36,270 nt of DNA from Deltaproteobacteria bacterium (GTDB lineage: Bacteria; Myxococcota_A; Bradymonadia; REDH01), in contig JABMMX010000372.1 in assembly GCA_013205435.1 (NCBI GenBank), forward strand, positions 1 to 36,270, in the 5' to 3' direction. Below are positions 24,902-33,714 of the stretch, piece by piece. A program made the translations under genes and the position numbers. Within the stretch, counting starts at the first letter, position 1. Each line of letters starts with the position of its first letter. The notes under the pieces are model-generated. The model did not search any database and was not told the DNA's origin. It saw only the letters and a program-made list of their open reading frames with translations.

Positions 24902-26803
24902 ATGAGGAACTTTGCGGAACATCAGTCGCAGGCGAGACGGCAGACGCGCACCCTCATCTGGCTCTTCGTCGTGGCGGTCGCAGCCGTTGCGGTGAGCCTG
25001 TACGCCCTCGTTGGGGTGTTCACGCTGCCGGCCGATCCTGCGCATCCTGGCAGCCGTATCTGGTGGGACGGTAAGACCGCCTTCATCGCGGCCTGCGCAG
25101 CACTCGGAACCATCGGGCTAGGAGCGCTTCTGAAGCATTCTGCGCTCTCCTCGGGCGGCAAAGCGGTGGCGGAGTCGGTGGGCGGAAAGCTCGTGACCAG
25201 CGACACGCGCGACCCCGAGGAGCGGAAGCTGCTCAACGTGGTCGAGGAGATGTCCATCGCCTCAGGAGTCCCGCTCCCGTTGGTCTATGTCCTCGATCAT
25301 GAGGAGGGCATCAACGCCTTCGCGGCGGGATACTCGGTGAACGATGCCGCGGTGGCAGTGACGCGAGGCGGCCTCCGAACGCTCAACCGAGCGGAGCTGC
25401 AGGGTGTGATGGCGCATGAGTTCAGCCACATCCTCAACGGCGACATGCGCATCTCCATCCGGCTCATCGCGGCGGTAGCGGGCATAGAGGCCATCGCCGG
25501 CATCGGGCGGTGGCTGCTCGCCAGCAGCCTGCATACGGGCATGATGCTCGGCAGCCGTAAGCGCGAGAACGGCGCACCGATGCTGATGATCGGCATCGCA
25601 ATGCTGGTCATCGGTGCCGCGGGCATCGCCTTCGGTCACCTGATCCGCGCGGCCATCTCGCGGCAGCGCGAGTATCTGGCCGACGCGTCGGCGGTACAGT
25701 TCACGCGTGACCCCTCAGGCATCGCCAATGCACTGAAGAAGATCGGCGGACTTGATGCCGGCTCGCGCGTGAAGGCCTCGCAGGCGACGGAGTTAAGCCA
25801 CCTCTTCTTCGGGCAGGCGCAGGCGCACGCGGCCTTCGGAAGCCTGCTGGCGACCCACCCGCCACTGGCAGAGCGGATTCGGCGGCTCGACTCTGCATTT
25901 GACGGGACCTTCGCCGCGACCCAGGGCGCGGATGACGACGCCGGCGAGCGGGGAGCGATCGCCGGGCTGTCGGGGGAAGGGGTTGGCCGTGGTCGCATCT
26001 CTGCGGCAGCGTTGCTGCAGCGTGACAGCGGTATGGGCTCGCACCAGGTGGCGATGGCCCGCATCCGCATGGAGGATATCTCGCCGGCGCTGCGCGAGGC
26101 AGCGACCCATCCGCTTGGCGCCGCCGCGATCGTCGTCTTGGCGAGCGACCTGTCGGCCGCCCAGGGGGCAGCGGCCGCCGAGTTCGAGGTGACGCCGGCC
26201 CTGCTCGCGGAGGCGCAGCGATTGGAGCCCCATCACGCGCGCATGACGCCCGCTGCTCGACTCACGCTCGTTCAGCTCGCTTGCGGGCCACTGCGGCAGC
26301 TCGGCGCGACACAGGCAGCCATGCTGCTCCGCATCTCCAACGCAGCGATGATTGCGGACCAGCGGCTTACGCCCTTCGAGGTGGTGCTTCGAGAGGTGCT
26401 TCACGAGCACCTTGGCGCGGTTGTCGACGGGGCAGCAGCGCGGCGCATGCAGTTTGTAGCCTACCGCGCCGTCACCACCCACATCGAGGTGCTGCTCTCT
26501 GCGATGGCCCACCTCGGGGGTTCGGGTGCCGCTGCAGGTTCGGCCTTCCGCGACGCGGCGAAGGGGCTCCCTTCGGAGGTCGAGGCTGCCGTTGCGCTGC
26601 GAGGCCGGGCGGTGCTCGAAGACGAGGCGCTTACCGTGGCGATCCGACAGCTCGCGCGAGCGTCGACAGCGATCAAGCAAGGGGTACTCGAAGCGTTGGC
26701 CGCTGCGGCGGTGAGCGACGGCACGATTGGCCCGGAGGAGGCCGACATGGTCCGCGCTATAGCCATCATCTTCCAGCTCCCGCTCCCGCTGCCAGAGGCT
26801 TAG
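24902..26803 (+). CDS. M48 family membrane metallopeptidase with TerB-like C-terminal domain
   Basis: Integral-membrane zinc peptidase of the HtpX/Ste24 type, 633 aa. Seen: two N-terminal membrane helices (LIWLFVVAVAAVAVSLYALVGV and AFIAACAALGTIGLGALL); the zinc site HEFSH at 172-176 with the later Glu ligand region RQREYLADASAVQFT; a third hydrophobic stretch LMIGIAMLVIGAAGIAFG; and the TH-PLAERIRRL motif of M48 enzymes. The last 130 or so residues, ending LEALAAAAVSDGTIGPEEADMVRAIA, resemble a TerB-like helical domain. AGGAG lies upstream of ATG 24902. Pairs with lemA. Its stop overlaps the convergent murF-alr stop. Confidence 0.88.
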   Translation: MRNFAEHQSQARRQTRTLIWLFVVAVAAVAVSLYALVGVFTLPADPAHPGSRIWWDGKTAFIAACAALGTIGLGALLKHSALSSGGKAVAESVGGKLVTSDTRDPEERKLLNVVEEMSIASGVPLPLVYVLDHEEGINAFAAGYSVNDAAVAVTRGGLRTLNRAELQGVMAHEFSHILNGDMRISIRLIAAVAGIEAIAGIGRWLLASSLHTGMMLGSRKRENGAPMLMIGIAMLVIGAAGIAFGHLIRAAISRQREYLADASAVQFTRDPSGIANALKKIGGLDAGSRVKASQATELSHLFFGQAQAHAAFGSLLATHPPLAERIRRLDSAFDGTFAATQGADDDAGERGAIAGLSGEGVGRGRISAAALLQRDSGMGSHQVAMARIRMEDISPALREAATHPLGAAAIVVLASDLSAAQGAAAAEFEVTPALLAEAQRLEPHHARMTPAARLTLVQLACGPLRQLGATQAAMLLRISNAAMIADQRLTPFEVVLREVLHEHLGAVVDGAAARRMQFVAYRAVTTHIEVLLSAMAHLGGSGAAAGSAFRDAAKGLPSEVEAAVALRGRAVLEDEALTVAIRQLARASTAIKQGVLEALAAAAVSDGTIGPEEADMVRAIAIIFQLPLPLPEA

Positions 26804-29220
26804 CCTGCGGAGGCGTGGAAGATGCGGCGCACCCGCGGCGAGACGCGGGTGAGCAGTTCATAGCTGATGGTATCTGCCAGCTCTGCGAGCGCTTCGAGGT
26901 CGGGCTCTCCGGGAGCTGCCCCGAAGACGACGACCTCGTCACCTGCGCGTGGCGGCGGATCGAGGTGGGTCACATCGAGCATGGTTACATCCATGCAGAC
27001 CCTTCCGACAACCGGGCAACGCTCGCCGCGGATCGACATCCAGCCCCGGTTGGAGAGGGAGCGCGGGTAGCCGTCGTTGTAGCCCAACGCCGCCACTGCG
27101 ATGCGCTGCGGGGTTGCGCCGGTCGAGTAGGTATGGCCGTATCCCACGCCATGTTCGGCGGGGAGCTCCTTGACGGAGACGAGGCGGGTAACGAGCCGCA
27201 AAGCCCGCTGCAGACCGACGGTCGCTGCGTCGGGTGAAAAGCCGAAGAGCCCGATGCCAGCTCGGATGCCCGAGTAGCGAGATGAGGGGAAACGGATGCC
27301 GCCGGCCGTGTTTGCTGCATGCACCCAGCGTGGCGTGATGCCAGCCTCGGCGAAGGCTGTGACGATGCGCTCGAAGGCGGCGATCTGGGCGCGGGTCTCG
27401 GTGTCGCGCGCCGGTTCGTCTGCGGAGGCGAGATGGGTCATCAGTCCGACGACCTCGAGCGACCTACTCTGCAGCACGAACGCGAGCACCTGGTCGAGTT
27501 CGGTAGGCAGAAAGCCGACACGCCCCATGCCGGTATCGAACTTGATGTGGACGCGTGCGACCGTCTGCTGTTGCTCCGCCGCAGCCTCCAGTTCGCGCAT
27601 CGTTGTCATGGTTCCGAGCTCGGCGCTGAGGTTCTCGCGCAGCAGTTTCCCCATCTCGTGAGGGAGCACATTCTGCACCAGAATCGCGGCGGTGATTCCC
27701 CGGGCTCGGAGGGCGATGCCCTCATCGGGGAAGGCAACACAGAAGCAGCTGGCGCCGACCCGCTCTAGGGCCTGGGCGATGCGCACGGAGTCGACACCGT
27801 AGCCATAGGATTTCACGACCGGCATCACGGAGACACCGCCGGCAGCAACGCGCAGCCGTCTGTAGTTCTCCACGATAGCGTCGATATCGACATGCAAGAG
27901 TGTGCTGGAGACTGCGTCGAGGAGCTCGGCGGCGACGGTCTCGAGGCGCGCGGGCCGGCTCCCCTTGAGCAGAACCCTGTCGCCGGGCTGTGCCCAGTGT
28001 TCGAGCAGCTTGGCGGCCGAGGCAGCGTCGGCGGTCGTGACAACGGCGCTCGCAGCCATGCCCGCCTCGATGGCGGCCGCGACAATCTCTGCGCCACCAT
28101 CACCGACGCCAATGAGCCTGTCGACGCCGAGCCGCGCGACCAGTGCGCCAACCTCGCGGTGTGCACGGAGCGAGGCCTTTCCCAGCTGCGCCATGCCGCC
28201 AAGGACAGCGATGGAGCGACCAGCAGTGCGCTCCTGCTGCAGGAACCGGAGCGCTGCCGCAACGCTCTCGGGGTCGGCGGTGTAGGCGTCGTTGATGACC
28301 ACCAGTCCGCGGGTGGTGGAGCTCCACTCGAGGCGGCCCGGCGATGGCTGCCAGCGCGACAGTCCGAGCGTGGCCTCCTCCTGCGAGACGCCCAGCGCCA
28401 ACGCACAGGTGATCGCCAACGCTGCGTCGGTTCGGAGGACCCAGTTGGAAGCCCAGTTCGCGGTCAGAAGCTGCGTCGCTCGAGCCGGTTCCACCTCCTG
28501 CGCGTCGCAGGGGAGCGGGGCTACCGCGAGCAGCGCGAGCGACTCCGACTGCGGAATGAAGATTTTACATCCCTTGGACATCTCAGCAAAGAGCTGCACC
28601 TTCTCGGCTGCGATGCCCTCTCGGCTTGCGAGACCCTCGAGATGCGCCGAACCGACATTCGTCCAGATGCCCATGGTGGGCCGCACCATGCGCTGCAGCC
28701 GGAGCATCTCGCCCGGCTGCGAGATGCCGCACTCGATGATTGCGACATCGGCGCCGGGGTCGAGACCGAGGAGCGACTGAGCCACGCCGACCTGCGAGTT
28801 GTAGCCGAGCGGCGTGCCCGTGACGCGGAGGGCGTCGGAGAGCGCGCAGACCAACATCTCTTTGGTGGTGGTCTTCCCGTTGCTGCCCGTGATTGCGATG
28901 ACCGCGCCCGAAAACCGGCTCCGCGCGATGCTGGCGAGTGCCTGGATGGCAACCGTGGTATCTGCGACGACCACAAAGGCGTCGCCTGGGCGGCGCACGG
29001 ACGGGAGCTTGCTGCAAAGCGCGACGGCTGCGCCAGCGTCGAGCGCGGTTCGGACAAAAGCATCGCCGTCTCTCTGGGCTTGAAGCGCTACAAAGAGGTC
29101 TCCCTCGCGCACACCGCGGCGGGTGTCGATGATGGCGCGCTCACACCTGCGCTCGCCATCTCCCACCAGCTCACCGCCAGTCCAGGCAGCGATCTGCGCC
29201 GCTGTCGCGGGCCAAATCAC
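26800..29220 (-). CDS. murF-alr: Bifunctional MurF ligase / alanine racemase
   Basis: Two peptidoglycan-precursor enzymes in one 806-residue chain. The N-terminal half (about 1-430) is MurF, which adds D-Ala-D-Ala to UDP-MurNAc-tripeptide: ATP site GSNGKT at 112-117, NVGSAHLEG, and VINDAYTADPESV with the ligase C-terminal domain. The second half (about 435-806) is a PLP-dependent alanine racemase making D-Ala from L-Ala: PLP lysine K470 in VVKSYGYGV (many homologues have VKADAYGHG), HIKFDTGMGRVGF, and the catalytic Tyr at about 694 in VGYGHTYS; CMDVTML near the end is also typical. Both active sites look intact. The start is GTG 29220, overlapping the kdd stop as GTGA. Last gene of the run; no terminator seen. 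Confidence 0.93.
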   Translation of the reverse strand: MIWPATAAQIAAWTGGELVGDGERRCERAIIDTRRGVREGDLFVALQAQRDGDAFVRTALDAGAAVALCSKLPSVRRPGDAFVVVADTTVAIQALASIARSRFSGAVIAITGSNGKTTTKEMLVCALSDALRVTGTPLGYNSQVGVAQSLLGLDPGADVAIIECGISQPGEMLRLQRMVRPTMGIWTNVGSAHLEGLASREGIAAEKVQLFAEMSKGCKIFIPQSESLALLAVAPLPCDAQEVEPARATQLLTANWASNWVLRTDAALAITCALALGVSQEEATLGLSRWQPSPGRLEWSSTTRGLVVINDAYTADPESVAAALRFLQQERTAGRSIAVLGGMAQLGKASLRAHREVGALVARLGVDRLIGVGDGGAEIVAAAIEAGMAASAVVTTADAASAAKLLEHWAQPGDRVLLKGSRPARLETVAAELLDAVSSTLLHVDIDAIVENYRRLRVAAGGVSVMPVVKSYGYGVDSVRIAQALERVGASCFCVAFPDEGIALRARGITAAILVQNVLPHEMGKLLRENLSAELGTMTTMRELEAAAEQQQTVARVHIKFDTGMGRVGFLPTELDQVLAFVLQSRSLEVVGLMTHLASADEPARDTETRAQIAAFERIVTAFAEAGITPRWVHAANTAGGIRFPSSRYSGIRAGIGLFGFSPDAATVGLQRALRLVTRLVSVKELPAEHGVGYGHTYSTGATPQRIAVAALGYNDGYPRSLSNRGWMSIRGERCPVVGRVCMDVTMLDVTHLDPPPRAGDEVVVFGAAPGEPDLEALAELADTISYELLTRVSPRVRRIFHASAG

Positions 29221-30266
29221 GGGTTGGAGCTCAGCGCACGCTCGAACTTCCTGCGCACAAATGCGGAGGAGCGTACCAGGTCGAGTGCAAGCTCTGCGTG
29301 GCCAACGGCATAGCCGTTTCCGACCATGAGGTTTGCATCCTTGCCCACCCCCTCCGCGCCGAGCGCGGCCCGCGCGAAGCTGGTGGCCATGTTAAAAAAG
29401 TAGACCGTTCCGCCCTCTCGCACAGAGAGGATGGCTGCCATCTCGGTCGCATCGACATTGGCGGTGTTGATGACCACATCGGCCTCTCCACCAAGCAGCT
29501 CCGTGATGCGGCGTGCGGCGCCGAGTGCATCCTTCGCGTCGACCGCATCCCCGGCATCGATGACACCCTCGGCGAGCGCTTCGCTGAGCGCCTCGACCGA
29601 ACGATCTACCGCCACCAGCCGGCCTGTAGAACCGAGCGCAAGCCGTGCCTGTGCCATGCAGAGCGTGCCGCTCTTGCCGGCGCCAAGGATGGCGACGCGC
29701 ATGCCCTCACGAACCAGTCGTGCGGTCTGTGCGGGCGCCCCGCAGACGTCGAGAACCGACAGCGCGAGCGCCTCGGGGAGGTCGGCCGGCATGACCACAA
29801 GGGGTGCCGAGGCGGGGAGGAAGGCGCGCCCCTCCACGACGACCTGGTCGGAGCCGAGACGGACCTCGTGGATGGCGTCGAGGCGGAGCGGCGTAAGTGT
29901 GAGCGAGACGAGCGTGGCGATGCGGTCGCCCACCCGGAGCGGCACGGGGCCAACGTAGTCTTCGCCAAGGGCAACGACCCTACCGAGGAGCATGCCGCCG
30001 GAACCGGTAACAGGGTTCTGCATCTTCCCGCGCGCGGCGACGATGGAGGCGATGTGGGTCGCGACGGCGGCCGCATCGCGGCCGACAGCACCGATGATCT
30101 GGTGGAACGAGGCCGAGTCGATGTTCAGCAGCTCGACCGCGATCTCCACCTCATCGGCGCGGCATGGCCCTGCGGGGTCGAGCTGTTGCGCGCCCTGCGG
30201 CAGCGAGCCTTCGGGTGCCAGCACACGATTCTCGCCCCAACGGCCTGCTCTGTTCTGGTCTGCCAT
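29217..30266 (-). CDS. kdd: L-erythro-3,5-diaminohexanoate dehydrogenase
   Basis: Predicted to oxidise 3,5-diaminohexanoate to 5-amino-3-oxohexanoate with NAD(P), the dehydrogenase step of the lysine fermentation (3,5-diaminohexanoate) pathway. Seen: 349 aa with the Kdd-like KMQNPVTGSGGMLLG near residue 80; a medium-chain dehydrogenase fold; the nucleotide-binding GAGKSG at about 194-199 (VAILGAGKSGTLCMAQ); VVINTANVDATEM; and GNGYAVGHAELALDLVR close to the end. AGGAGAG precedes ATG 30266. It is 11 bases after the UDG gene and overlaps murF-alr. The next pathway enzyme, Kce, is encoded at the right edge, which strengthens the call. A general zinc-type dehydrogenase is the alternative. Confidence 0.85.
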   Translation of the reverse strand: MADQNRAGRWGENRVLAPEGSLPQGAQQLDPAGPCRADEVEIAVELLNIDSASFHQIIGAVGRDAAAVATHIASIVAARGKMQNPVTGSGGMLLGRVVALGEDYVGPVPLRVGDRIATLVSLTLTPLRLDAIHEVRLGSDQVVVEGRAFLPASAPLVVMPADLPEALALSVLDVCGAPAQTARLVREGMRVAILGAGKSGTLCMAQARLALGSTGRLVAVDRSVEALSEALAEGVIDAGDAVDAKDALGAARRITELLGGEADVVINTANVDATEMAAILSVREGGTVYFFNMATSFARAALGAEGVGKDANLMVGNGYAVGHAELALDLVRSSAFVRRKFERALSSNP

Positions 30267-30277
30267 GGCTCTCTCCT

Positions 30278-31186
30278 TCAGCTCAGCGCGAGCCGCTTCA
30301 TGACCTGCTGCAGGTCATGCCACGCCGCCTTCTTCAACTCCGGTTTCTGGAGCAGCAGGGTGGGGTGGAAGGTGGGCATCATGGGAACGCCGTGCAACTC
30401 CATCCACTTGCCGCGATCTTCTGCGGTGAGCGTCTCATCGGGCTTGAGCGCGGCCAGCGCAGCACCGCCGAGCACGACGATGACCTCTGGCTGTGCGATG
30501 CGGATCTGCGCGGCGAGAACGGGACGGCATCGCCTCACCTCCTCAGGATGGGGGCGCCGGGCGGGGGTGCTGCGGCACTTCACGACCGAGGTGATGTAGA
30601 CCTGCTCCGGGGTGAGTTTCATGGCCTGCAGCATCTTGCCGAGCAGTTCGCCCTCGGGGCCGGCGAGAGCGGTTCCCGTGCGGTCTTCCTCTGCGGTGGG
30701 CATGTCGCCAACGAACATGATGCGGGGCCGCTCTGCCCCCTCGCCGAAGACCAGATGTGTTCGGTCATCGCAGAGCGGGCAGCGATGGCAGTCGCCGAGC
30801 TGGGCGCGGAGTGCGGCGAGCGTCGTGGCCCGCTGCGGGACGGCGTCTGGCGGGCGGTTGGAGGAGAGTGTCTGGCTGACCGACTGGGCGAACTCCTCCA
30901 TGCGCCTTCCGATCGCCTCGTTCGAAGCGGCAGACGGCAGCTCGGAGGTTGCAGGCGTTGCAGCGTGACGGGGTGCACCGGTGGGGAGCGGAGCCTGTCG
31001 TTGCGGCGCTGAGGCTGGTTGCGGAGCCTGCCGCTCGGCCGGAGCGGGCGGTCGTGCGGCAGCAGGTCGTGGCGCTTCGCGACGGGCAAGCGTGGTGAGG
31101 CCGAGCTCTGACTGCCGACGGAGCCAGGCGGCGAGGTCGCCGGCCAGCTCCTGAAGCAGCATCTCATCGGAACGAACACCGCTCAT
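30278..31186 (-). CDS. Uracil-DNA glycosylase, family 4 (iron-sulfur)
   Basis: Removes uracil from DNA to start base-excision repair. Seen: four cluster cysteines C133-x2-C136 (CHRC) and C204-x15-C220, the spacing of family 4 UDGs; the catalytic-loop region FVGDMPTAEEDRTGTALAGPEG, usually GEAPG-x-EED; and HPTLLLQ near the C-terminus. The first 110 or so residues are a Pro/Ala/Arg/Gln-rich, probably disordered extension, making the protein (302 aa) longer than the core enzyme. ATG 31186 overlaps the coaB stop as ATGA. GDMP in place of GEAP is a variation in the active-site loop, so substrate range may differ from the textbook enzyme. Confidence 0.9.
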   Translation of the reverse strand: MSGVRSDEMLLQELAGDLAAWLRRQSELGLTTLARREAPRPAAARPPAPAERQAPQPASAPQRQAPLPTGAPRHAATPATSELPSAASNEAIGRRMEEFAQSVSQTLSSNRPPDAVPQRATTLAALRAQLGDCHRCPLCDDRTHLVFGEGAERPRIMFVGDMPTAEEDRTGTALAGPEGELLGKMLQAMKLTPEQVYITSVVKCRSTPARRPHPEEVRRCRPVLAAQIRIAQPEVIVVLGGAALAALKPDETLTAEDRGKWMELHGVPMMPTFHPTLLLQKPELKKAAWHDLQQVMKRLALS

Positions 31187-32196
31187 CGCTTCCTCGCCAA
31201 ACAGCCCTCTGCCCAGGCCACGATCGCCGCAGCGATCTCACGCTTCTCGGCAGGCCCGAAAGAGACAGCGCCTCCCGCTCCATCGTAGCACTGCACGCAG
31301 TTGCTGTCCGAGCCAAATGCGCCCCCCGCTCCTACATCGTTGGCAACGATGCCGTCGAGTGACTTGGCGCGGAGCTTCTCTCGGGCATACCGCTCCATGT
31401 CGTGCGTCTCCGCCGCAAAGCCAATCAACAGGTCGGGGCGGACGGCCGATGCAGAGAGCTCCGCGAGGATATCCGGGGTGCGCTCCATCTCGAGCGTCCA
31501 GGGGCCGACTCCCTTCTTCACCTTTCCGACGCGGCGCTCGACGGGCCGGTAATCTGAGACAGCGGCGGCCATGAAGACCACATCGTAGCGCTCCGCCAGC
31601 ACCGCCTCGCGCATCTCTTGGGCGCTGGTCAGGTCGATCCTGCGGATACCCCACGGGGTGTCGAGGACCGTGGGGCCGGAGACCAAGATAACCTCTGCAC
31701 CAGCGATCCAGGCTGCCTCTGCCAGCGCGTATCCCATCTTGCCGCTCGAGGGGTTGGAGAGGAACCGCACGGCGTCGAAGTGCTCTACCGTGGGGCCGGC
31801 CGTTACGAGCAGGCGGAGCGACTCCCAAGGGCGGTTGGAGAGCGCCCGCAGCAGACAGGGCAGCAGCCAGCGGCTCGCTGGGAACCTGCCCGCTTCGGGA
31901 GCCTGCACGAGCGGCAGTTCGGCCCGTTGCACCTGCCATTCACGCTTCGCCGCTGCACCGCCGAGGACCAGAAGTGCGTCGGCCTCCCACGATGCGGCGA
32001 CTCGCTCAACCGCAAGCCCCTCTCCGAGCAAATGCTCCAGCGCGGCGGCTCCGAACCATCTTGCCGCGCCGGGAACCTCATGAATCCCAACCCGTGCTCC
32101 GGCGCTGGCAAGGAGCCGCGCGAACGCAATGGTCTCGCTTGCTGCAGGCTCGTCAGAGACCGCAAGCAGGAGTCTGCGTTGGTTGAGGAGAGTCAC
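31183..32196 (-). CDS. coaB: Phosphopantothenate-cysteine ligase (CoaB) with degenerate CoaC-like N-terminus
   Basis: The C-terminal two thirds is a clear CoaB domain, which joins cysteine to phosphopantothenate in coenzyme A synthesis: LLVTAGPTVEHFDAVRFLSNPSSGKMGYALAEAA, VSGPTVLDTPWGI, AAAVSDYRP, KVKKG, PDILAELS, IGFAAET and IVANDVGAGGAFG. The first 128 residues sit where the CoaC decarboxylase should be (about 180 residues in E. coli) but lack the catalytic His segment, the PASANTIAK-type stretch, the N-x-x-MW motif and the C-terminal Cys loop. The decarboxylase half is therefore probably inactive. The track start at 32220 is TTG; GTG 32196 is preferred because it overlaps the Nudix stop as GTGA and has GGAG upstream, giving 337 aa. 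Confidence 0.85.
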   Translation of the reverse strand: MTLLNQRRLLLAVSDEPAASETIAFARLLASAGARVGIHEVPGAARWFGAAALEHLLGEGLAVERVAASWEADALLVLGGAAAKREWQVQRAELPLVQAPEAGRFPASRWLLPCLLRALSNRPWESLRLLVTAGPTVEHFDAVRFLSNPSSGKMGYALAEAAWIAGAEVILVSGPTVLDTPWGIRRIDLTSAQEMREAVLAERYDVVFMAAAVSDYRPVERRVGKVKKGVGPWTLEMERTPDILAELSASAVRPDLLIGFAAETHDMERYAREKLRAKSLDGIVANDVGAGGAFGSDSNCVQCYDGAGGAVSFGPAEKREIAAAIVAWAEGCLARKR

Positions 32197-32852
32197 TGCC
32201 CGCGCTCCATCGAGAGCCAACCTTGCAGGCCATCCGCACCATGCGCATCGAGCTCCATCACGCCCTCCTCGGCCCAGCGGAACAGGGAGGCGAGGAGGCC
32301 GCCTGTGAGCCCCCAGACGAAGTCACCTTCGTAGTCGAAGGCCTGCATGGTCACCTTGCGACCACCACGCTCAAACTCCTGCGGCCGGCGCGCATCGGGG
32401 TGCATGAGCCGCTCCACATCGGCCACGATGACGCGCGCAATCTCTGCCTCACTGAGCACGAGAGCCGGCGGTGCATCGAGCCAGCCAACCACCGGCACAA
32501 CACGGTAGCCACCGATGCTCCACGCCTCGTCCAAACAGCCGAGCGTCTGGACGGCCTCGGCTTCGATACCGCACTCTTCCCAAAGTTCGCGGAGCGCAGC
32601 TTCGCGCGCGCCTTCATCGTCGCGATCGAGGCGCCCGCCAGGAAAGGAGATCTGCCCCTTGTGGGTAGAGACCTGCTCGGTCCGCACGGTGAGGAGTGTC
32701 TTGACCCCGTCGTCATACCAGAAGGGCATGAGCACGGCAGCGCGCCGGAAGTAGGCCGGCACCACCTCGTCTCGGAGCTGCTTGGGCTCGTGGGTGGCGA
32801 GGGCGTCGAGCCGCGCGCGGAACCAGGCTGAGAAGGGAGGCTGCTCGTTCAT
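32193..32852 (-). CDS. Nudix hydrolase, CoA pyrophosphatase type
   Basis: Predicted to cleave coenzyme A or its derivatives to 3',5'-ADP and phosphopantetheine. Seen: 219 aa with the CoA-specific lead-in HKGQISFPGGRLDRDDEGAR followed by the Nudix box end REAALRELWEECGI, and then LGCLDEAWSIGGYRVVPVVGW. The HxGQxxFPGG arrangement distinguishes this subgroup from MutT. The stop overlaps the coaB start as GTGA, so an enzyme of CoA synthesis and one of CoA breakdown are translationally coupled. Twenty-five bases after the unknown two-domain gene; the ribosome-binding site is weak. Confidence 0.87.
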   Translation of the reverse strand: MNEQPPFSAWFRARLDALATHEPKQLRDEVVPAYFRRAAVLMPFWYDDGVKTLLTVRTEQVSTHKGQISFPGGRLDRDDEGAREAALRELWEECGIEAEAVQTLGCLDEAWSIGGYRVVPVVGWLDAPPALVLSEAEIARVIVADVERLMHPDARRPQEFERGGRKVTMQAFDYEGDFVWGLTGGLLASLFRWAEEGVMELDAHGADGLQGWLSMERGQ

Positions 32853-32877: not shown

Positions 32878-33714
32878 TCAGTCCTTCTTGATGAGGTTGA
32901 AGACGCGGTCCGGGCCGGCTGGCACGATGCGAAAGACCCGCATCATGAGCTTGCGCATGGACTGGTTCGGAAGGAGCACCTTGGCAGAGTCTTCACCGAG
33001 CGACTCGTGGAAACGGCAGCGGCCCAGCGAGGGATGAAGGAGCACATCTCCACGCTTGAGGTGGTCGAGATCCACATCCTCGCTGTTCTCGATGTCCTCT
33101 TGGACCTTCGCGGAGAAGGCGGTGACGGCGCCCCAATCGAGCGCTGCCGCCGGCGAGGGGGGCGGAGAGGAGAGGCCGCTGAGCGGAGCCGCGGGCTGCA
33201 CGCGCATGGAACCGCCCTGCGATGTCGAGGGGCGAGCAGGCGCGATCGGAGCAGGCATGGAGCGAGAGACGACCTGCGGCGGCGTTGTGGTTCGAGGCGC
33301 TGCGACCTCGGGAAGGGCGCGGGCGGGTTGGCCCGCCGAAGCGGAGGCGCCGAAAGCGGCAGTTCGCTGCAGCAACACGGTGATGTCTGCCGCAACGAGG
33401 CCGAGTACCTGCCCTCCTCGGAGCGTCGGTTGTCCGCCGAGCGTCGCAAGGGCGGTGGCCATGAGGCGCAGCCGCTCCGTCTTCCGCGCATCCCAGCCAC
33501 CTTCGAGCGAGAGCAGCAGGCCGCCCTCGTCGTCGGCAAGCGTGACGGTCGCGCTGCTGTTGCGACCATCCGAGAGCCTGATCTGCTCGTAGCGGCCGGA
33601 GGCGCGCACATAGCCCGTTGGCCAGCCGAGCGAGAGCAGCGCTGCGGTCACAGCACCCGCCACCTCTTCACCCTCGGCAAGACGCAACTCCAAGACTCCC
33701 TCGTGCTCGCTCAT
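32878..33714 (-). CDS. Unknown protein with PPC-like N-terminus and small C-terminal domain
   Basis: No firm family. Seen: 278 aa in three parts. The N-terminal 115 or so residues (LELRLAEGEEVAGAVTAALLSLGW, then GGLLLSLEGGWDARKTERLRLMA) recall the PPC/DUF296 fold by pattern only. A middle stretch of about 80 residues is Pro/Ala/Ser-rich and probably disordered. The C-terminal 65 residues (LDHLKRGDVLLHPSLGRCRFHESLGEDSAKVLL, ending NLIKKD) look like a small beta-barrel domain seen in deltaproteobacterial proteins with a GD-x-x-x-HP-x-x-GRC pattern. First gene of the six-gene minus run, divergent from murJ with 60 bases between. Possibly a regulator or nucleic-acid binder; unproven. Confidence 0.6.
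   Translation of the reverse strand: MSEHEGVLELRLAEGEEVAGAVTAALLSLGWPTGYVRASGRYEQIRLSDGRNSSATVTLADDEGGLLLSLEGGWDARKTERLRLMATALATLGGQPTLRGGQVLGLVAADITVLLQRTAAFGASASAGQPARALPEVAAPRTTTPPQVVSRSMPAPIAPARPSTSQGGSMRVQPAAPLSGLSSPPPSPAAALDWGAVTAFSAKVQEDIENSEDVDLDHLKRGDVLLHPSLGRCRFHESLGEDSAKVLLPNQSMRKLMMRVFRIVPAGPDRVFNLIKKD

Follow-up and report, generated by a model that had tools for sequence, protein, structure and literature searches.

The window, i.e. the whole stretch of 36,270 nucleotides that was analyzed, originates from a lake bacterium and contains, in a compact gene cluster, a coaB-like gene whose product consists of an intact ligase domain preceded by an eroded decarboxylase domain (Table 1). 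The gene overlaps both of its neighbors. At its 5' end, the GTG start (32196) shares bases with the stop codon of the NUDIX hydrolase gene, and at its 3' end, the TGA stop (31185-31183) does so with the ATG of the uracil-DNA glycosylase (UDG) gene. Other genes in the cluster deserve mention. MurF and alanine racemase are encoded as a single protein, a fusion kept in the family (in G004 and G005, which represent two sister genera). The gene between murF-alr and UDG (29217-30266, minus strand) encodes an L-erythro-3,5-diaminohexanoate dehydrogenase (NF052381, above cut-off), which suggests lysine degradation; in G004, unlike in the window, the UDG and murF-alr genes are immediately adjacent. Upstream of the NUDIX gene, positions 32878-33714 (minus strand) encode a 278-aa protein matching nothing in Pfam or NCBIfam.

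Table 1. The coaB-like gene, its domains, and its neighbors (positions are those of the window)
Feature	Position	Strand	Remarks
coaB-like gene (native CoaBC minus its CoaC half)	31183..32196	-	337 aa, GTG start
Eroded CoaC domain, residues 1-126	31819..32196	-	no equivalents of His75, Asn125, and Cys158
Part recognizable as CoaC, ~residues 1-71, aligned with CoaC residues 2-70	31984..32196	-	hhalign E 4.9e-5; HMM i-E 0.008; 32% identity to G004 CoaBC, E 7.6e-5
Intact CoaB (phosphopantothenate--cysteine ligase) domain	31186..31818	-	Asn148 = E. coli Asn210; Lys225 = E. coli Lys289
NUDIX hydrolase gene, upstream, overlapping (GTGA), within the conserved neighborhood	32193..32852	-	
Family-4 uracil-DNA glycosylase (UDG) gene, downstream, overlapping (ATGA)	30278..31186	-	also adjoins coaB(C) in G004 and G041
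MurF-alanine racemase fusion gene	26800..29220	-	806 aa; syntenic marker, found in G004 and G005 downstream of coaBC as well

The ligase half of the protein has the domain and the key residues of CoaB. It matches PF04127 with an E value of 1.1e-62 and 211.6 bits (cut-off 22 bits) over residues 133-309, as counted from an earlier TTG rather than from the GTG start, and its closest solved relatives are CoaB structures. Asn148, Lys225, and the K-x-K-K loop (KVKK) are kept in all four species in which we found this protein. An earlier note on this DNA, which had claimed that the CoaB domain is intact, was therefore correct on this point. The decarboxylase half is very different. Only ~126 residues precede CoaB, of which PF02441, the CoaC family, finds none even at an E value of 10, and the score of the whole protein against the CoaBC equivalog TIGR00521 is 200.9 bits, i.e. 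below the cut-off of 219.7, with the best stretch covering model positions 166-388. A canonical CoaC profile made from twelve CoaC domains and run across the six frames of the entire window gave a single significant match, which lies in this gene and corresponds to CoaC residues 2-70. The same stretch was identified by profile-profile comparison and by a direct match to the N terminus of G004 CoaBC (Table 1), indicating that only the first third of CoaC has been kept. Where E. coli Dfp has its flavin loop, GGIAAYK, the aligned residues of the window protein are DEPAASE. The alignment further shows that ~60 residues are missing in total, namely the segments that contain His75, APATAN, PAMN, and the ACG flap. 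The catalytic His, the PxMN motif, the Cys flap, and the GGIAAYK FMN loop are absent in 4/4 species, in agreement with the earlier claim that the N terminus is shortened and lacks the catalytic His, the nucleotide-site segments, and the Cys loop. The six-frame search did not recover the FMN-binding or catalytic motifs in any other frame of the region. In the predicted structure, the N-terminal domain is a pared-down half-Rossmann fold modeled with fair confidence (pLDDT of about 63-92 across its blocks), which is followed by a confident CoaB fold, and a Foldseek search with this model ranks Mycobacterium smegmatis CoaBC first. Another known fold for the N-terminal domain was considered and rejected, because a PDB sequence search returned only a few matches, all with E values above 0.3 and M. 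smegmatis CoaBC among them, and the structure search led to CoaBC first.

The eroded gene is a genuine feature of the genus. Three more genomes encode a protein of the same type (79-90% identity), and all of these proteins have exactly 337 residues and align without gaps. Among the four species, dN/dS is 0.20-0.38 for the N-terminal half versus 0.06-0.16 for the CoaB half, whereas in a control, another genus of this class whose CoaBC is intact, the order is reversed (0.03-0.05 for CoaC and 0.16-0.19 for CoaB). When the N-terminal half is read in frame +1, dN/dS exceeds 1. The eroded CoaC half is thus far more relaxed than an intact CoaC yet not neutral. These results also dispose of the notion that a frameshift or an assembly error conceals a normal CoaBC, for which nothing speaks except that the MAG is fragmented. 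Four MAGs agree in length and frame, selection is seen in frame only, and a search with the CoaC profile for the missing motifs in all the other frames and in the rest of the window found none, so that such an artefact can be considered excluded for all practical purposes.

In G004 and G005, the two sister genera of the same family, CoaBC is canonical and ~400-420 aa long, and the NUDIX-coaB(C)-UDG-murF/alr gene order is in part common to them and to the window. In a CoaB tree, the four window-type proteins cluster with the proteins of G004 and G005 (support 96/93). This combination of synteny and grouping with sister genera that have full-length CoaBC identifies the gene as the vertically inherited native CoaBC of this Bradymonadia lineage, whose CoaC half was lost in place.

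The earlier note had reasoned that either the decarboxylase must come from another gene or the N terminus has a new role, and had suggested looking for a stand-alone coaC. Exactly one PF02441 (HFCD flavoprotein) gene was found in the genome of the window, at G000:C206:9715-10317(-), where it is cut by the end of the contig. This partner is unlinked to coaB, from which it is separated by lying on a different contig. A complete ortholog of 293 aa is present at G001:C49:5899-6780(-), and G003 carries the gene as well. Profile searches detected no further HFCD gene in G001 (93% complete) or in the genome of the window, although the latter is 81% complete, so that another CoaC could be missed. The partner scores 68 bits against PF02441 (cut-off 22.7), and GGIAAMK (the FMN loop), the motif APATYN, and a His at the position of His75 are all present, but the Asn125 of PxMN is replaced by His and the Cys158 flap is absent. 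What is left of CoaB in the partner is a C-terminal tract of ~85 residues, which aligns to the CoaB half of a full-length relative in G002 (SPLR, EELLLRGA) but has an Asp at the position of Asn210, lacks the region of Lys289, and gives no match to PF04127. Selection follows the same division, with dN/dS values of 0.06-0.20 for the CoaC part versus 0.23-0.29 for the CoaB remnant. The best profile for the class to which the partner belongs is CoaBC, and the structure model of the partner resembles CoaBC and PPC decarboxylases. The two genes therefore have reciprocal motifs: the window gene has lost His75, Asn125, and Cys158 while keeping Asn210 and Lys289, whereas the partner has kept His75 and lost Asn210 and Lys289. 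With its catalytic His and FMN motifs, and with its own CoaB half lost, the partner is a clear candidate, judged by its sequence, for the missing decarboxylase, which lends good support to the first of the two options in the earlier note. The full-length relative in G002 (G002:C610:8077-9354, L081; 420 aa) is a divergent CoaBC found beside the eroded native gene in the same genome, and is closest to the copy of G041, a genome from another family. One of its neighbors is a gene absent from the genus, although the composition of the contig fits nevertheless. This contig may have been mis-binned, or the copy may have been transferred, and we do not take it as evidence of an evolutionary intermediate.

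The partner belongs to a divergent class of CoaC that occurs elsewhere in Myxococcota, is monophyletic, and stands apart from canonical CoaC (support 100/100). Its motif line is GDH/GDR...GGIAAMK...H...APATYN...PTMHGSM...GKxxxP, and all aligned members have His for Asn125 (PTMHGSM, with small variations) and a deletion of the Cys158 flap, with GKxxxP instead. In the taxonomic class, PF02441 occurs as a single gene per genome: among 57 genomes, canonical CoaC is found in 48 and the divergent form in eight, none has both, and one has neither. Family f6 has the divergent form as part of a full-length bifunctional protein, the sole CoaBC, in which it is fused to the only CoaB of the genome. In 16 genomes of f12 and three of f22, where it is the only CoaC candidate, it is shorter or stands alone and is accompanied by a separate CoaB gene. 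Two f22 genomes have additional PF02441 genes, which were examined as possible canonical CoaC and rejected, as these are UbiX-like, with a MenG/UbiE-type methyltransferase gene next to them. As a side observation, L145 and L146 of f12, together with G044:C315 (L078), encode a separate type of CoaB (TAGGTREPIDDVRFVSN) unlike the CoaB half of CoaBC, which G044 has on top of a canonical CoaBC. A second exchange is seen in G041, which encodes a CoaB of 256 aa without any CoaC part, adjoining the same UDG gene, as well as a divergent-class flavoprotein whose CoaB half has likewise decayed. The G041 CoaB clusters with the canonical CoaBC of its own family (95/91), apart from the window-type proteins. 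These separate tree positions point to two independent losses of a CoaC half, i.e. the sequences indicate that the exchange happened twice, and that in G041 the native CoaC half is wholly gone. Considering its patchy presence and its position in the tree, the divergent class may have been acquired by transfer. Neither this class nor a splitting of CoaBC in Myxococcota is described in the literature that our searches retrieved.

These organisms are expected to need a CoaC. CoaX was found in 12 of the 13 genomes tested (the exception being G031), including all those of the genus, G041, and five of f12, and CoaE was found in 13/13. Type III pantothenate kinase cannot use pantetheine, which precludes a bypass of CoaBC by pantetheine salvage (PMC8721197). 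Because CoaX is present and the type III enzyme does not allow a bypass, the cells would need CoaC, as judged from a search for pantothenate kinases that covered CoaX.

Our preferred explanation, to which we give a probability of roughly 80%, is that the native CoaBC acts only as CoaB, that an unlinked divergent CoaBC with a decayed CoaB half supplies CoaC, and that the N-terminal remnant is likely a structural support. Two broken enzymes would thus probably complete each other. The native decarboxylase half would have become redundant once the lineage carried a second CoaBC of the divergent class, whose own CoaB half would then have decayed to ~85 residues. The window protein would catalyze only the CTP-dependent joining of 4'-phosphopantothenate to cysteine, and the partner would convert phosphopantothenoylcysteine to phosphopantetheine by FMN-dependent oxidative decarboxylation. 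As for the remaining third of CoaC, the relaxed yet genuine purifying selection on it, together with a half-Rossmann fold modeled with fair confidence, suggests that the cell still makes this part and benefits from it. In the simplest case, it would be a structural appendage that supports the CoaB domain as a folded unit. M. smegmatis CoaB does not dimerize and is inactive without CoaC, whereas E. coli CoaB works alone (PMC7794376), and the former dependence makes a support role the simplest guess. The remnant is dispensable in principle, as illustrated by the CoaB of G041. What counts against the partner as a CoaC is its His for Asn125 and its lack of the Cys158 flap, whose Cys the plant and yeast enzymes require for the second half-reaction (PMC9604783, PMC4626798). 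We do not consider this fatal, because M. smegmatis CoaBC (6tgv) sets a precedent for a Cys-less CoaC: in the alignment, the Asn of PxMN is a His (PAMH) and the flap has no Cys. These two textbook residues are thus, on alignment, not universal even among characterized CoaBC.

Rather than merely supporting CoaB, the N-terminal domain could work in a mixed oligomer, docking on the partner CoaC in the manner of yeast Hal3, Vhs3, and Cab3, and keeping CoaB beside the decarboxylase. The constant length of the tract in four species and its purifying selection would fit, as would the inactivity of M. smegmatis CoaB when deprived of its CoaC (PMC7794376) and the organization of yeast PPCDC as a heterotrimer of degenerate paralogs (PMC4626798). 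However, HFCD protomers meet at the active site, most of whose segments belong to the lost tract, and G041 keeps the same partner class after dropping the whole domain, which makes such docking unlikely, if worth keeping in mind. A related scenario, in which a divergent CoaC without the usual Asn and Cys repeatedly displaced native CoaC halves in Myxococcota, with pairs of reciprocally eroded bifunctional genes as the outcome, and the leftover third in this genus holds CoaB to the foreign CoaC as a hybrid two-gene complex, is likewise unlikely, and something we would propose only tentatively.

The remnant might also have taken on an unrelated function, with the former flavin loop now serving, for instance, to sense a ligand or in regulation, since DEPAASET is invariant in 4/4 species and dN/dS is below 0.4. 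DEPAASET was rejected as a significant motif, because with four species it is not above chance: about half of the columns of the domain are invariant, and by our reckoning a run of eight is expected ~0.6 times by chance. In addition, the CoaC half is much less selected than an intact one, as for a fading domain, so that a new function appears improbable. We find it similarly hard to believe, and slightly more so, that a non-HFCD enzyme performs the CoaC step while the divergent flavoprotein does another job, e.g. another decarboxylation of cysteine. This could account for a class without Cys158 and with His at Asn125, and there are HFCD proteins, e.g. EpiD and CypD, that modify peptides. Nevertheless, the divergent protein is the only CoaC candidate in f6, f12, f22, and G041, it is fused in f6 to the only CoaB of the genome, its best profile is CoaBC, and mycobacterial CoaBC has the same two changes.

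Other bacteria depend on CoaBC, which serves as a drug target there and is usually viewed as an inseparable two-domain enzyme. The genus represents a natural experiment in the separation of CoaBC, with two distantly related copies that have lost opposite halves. It would allow one to test whether fusion is needed for channeling or for CoaB dimerization, and how a CoaC without the redox Cys completes its reaction. In practical terms, standard equivalog models would make the CoA pathway of these Myxococcota seem incomplete. The cut-offs of TIGR02113 and TIGR02114, the models for the separate CoaC and CoaB of streptococci, are reached by neither the window protein nor its partner.

Compared with known systems, the window gene resembles bifunctional CoaBC (Dfp; TIGR00521, as in E. 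coli Dfp and M. smegmatis 6tgv) in occupying the CoaBC locus of the sister genera and in its intact CoaB and recognizable first third of CoaC. It differs in a CoaC half shorter by ~60 residues, in the loss of His75, Asn125, and Cys158, and in falling below the TIGR00521 cut-off. As in bacteria with separate CoaB and CoaC (TIGR02114/TIGR02113), such as streptococci and Mycoplasma iowae (PMC8721197), ligase and decarboxylase would reside on two polypeptides, but here the split arose when two bifunctional genes, each from a different class, eroded, leaving a remnant on each. Yeast PPCDC, the Hal3/Vhs3/Cab3 heterotrimer (PMC9604783, PMC4626798), offers a parallel from the same pathway, in that degenerate paralogs divide a formerly complete enzyme. 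However, the yeast subunits share a single CoaC active site among them, whereas whole CoaB and CoaC domains are divided here and our preferred reading involves no shared active site. The partner class, for its part, shares with actinobacterial CoaBC (M. smegmatis) the PAMH-type His in place of PAMN and the flap without Cys, but it has lost ~6 flap residues and has GKxxxP, unlike the full bifunctional M. smegmatis enzyme. The splitting of CoaB and CoaC is itself known; what is new is the reciprocal erosion of two bifunctional genes, together with a divergent class of CoaC as the replacement.
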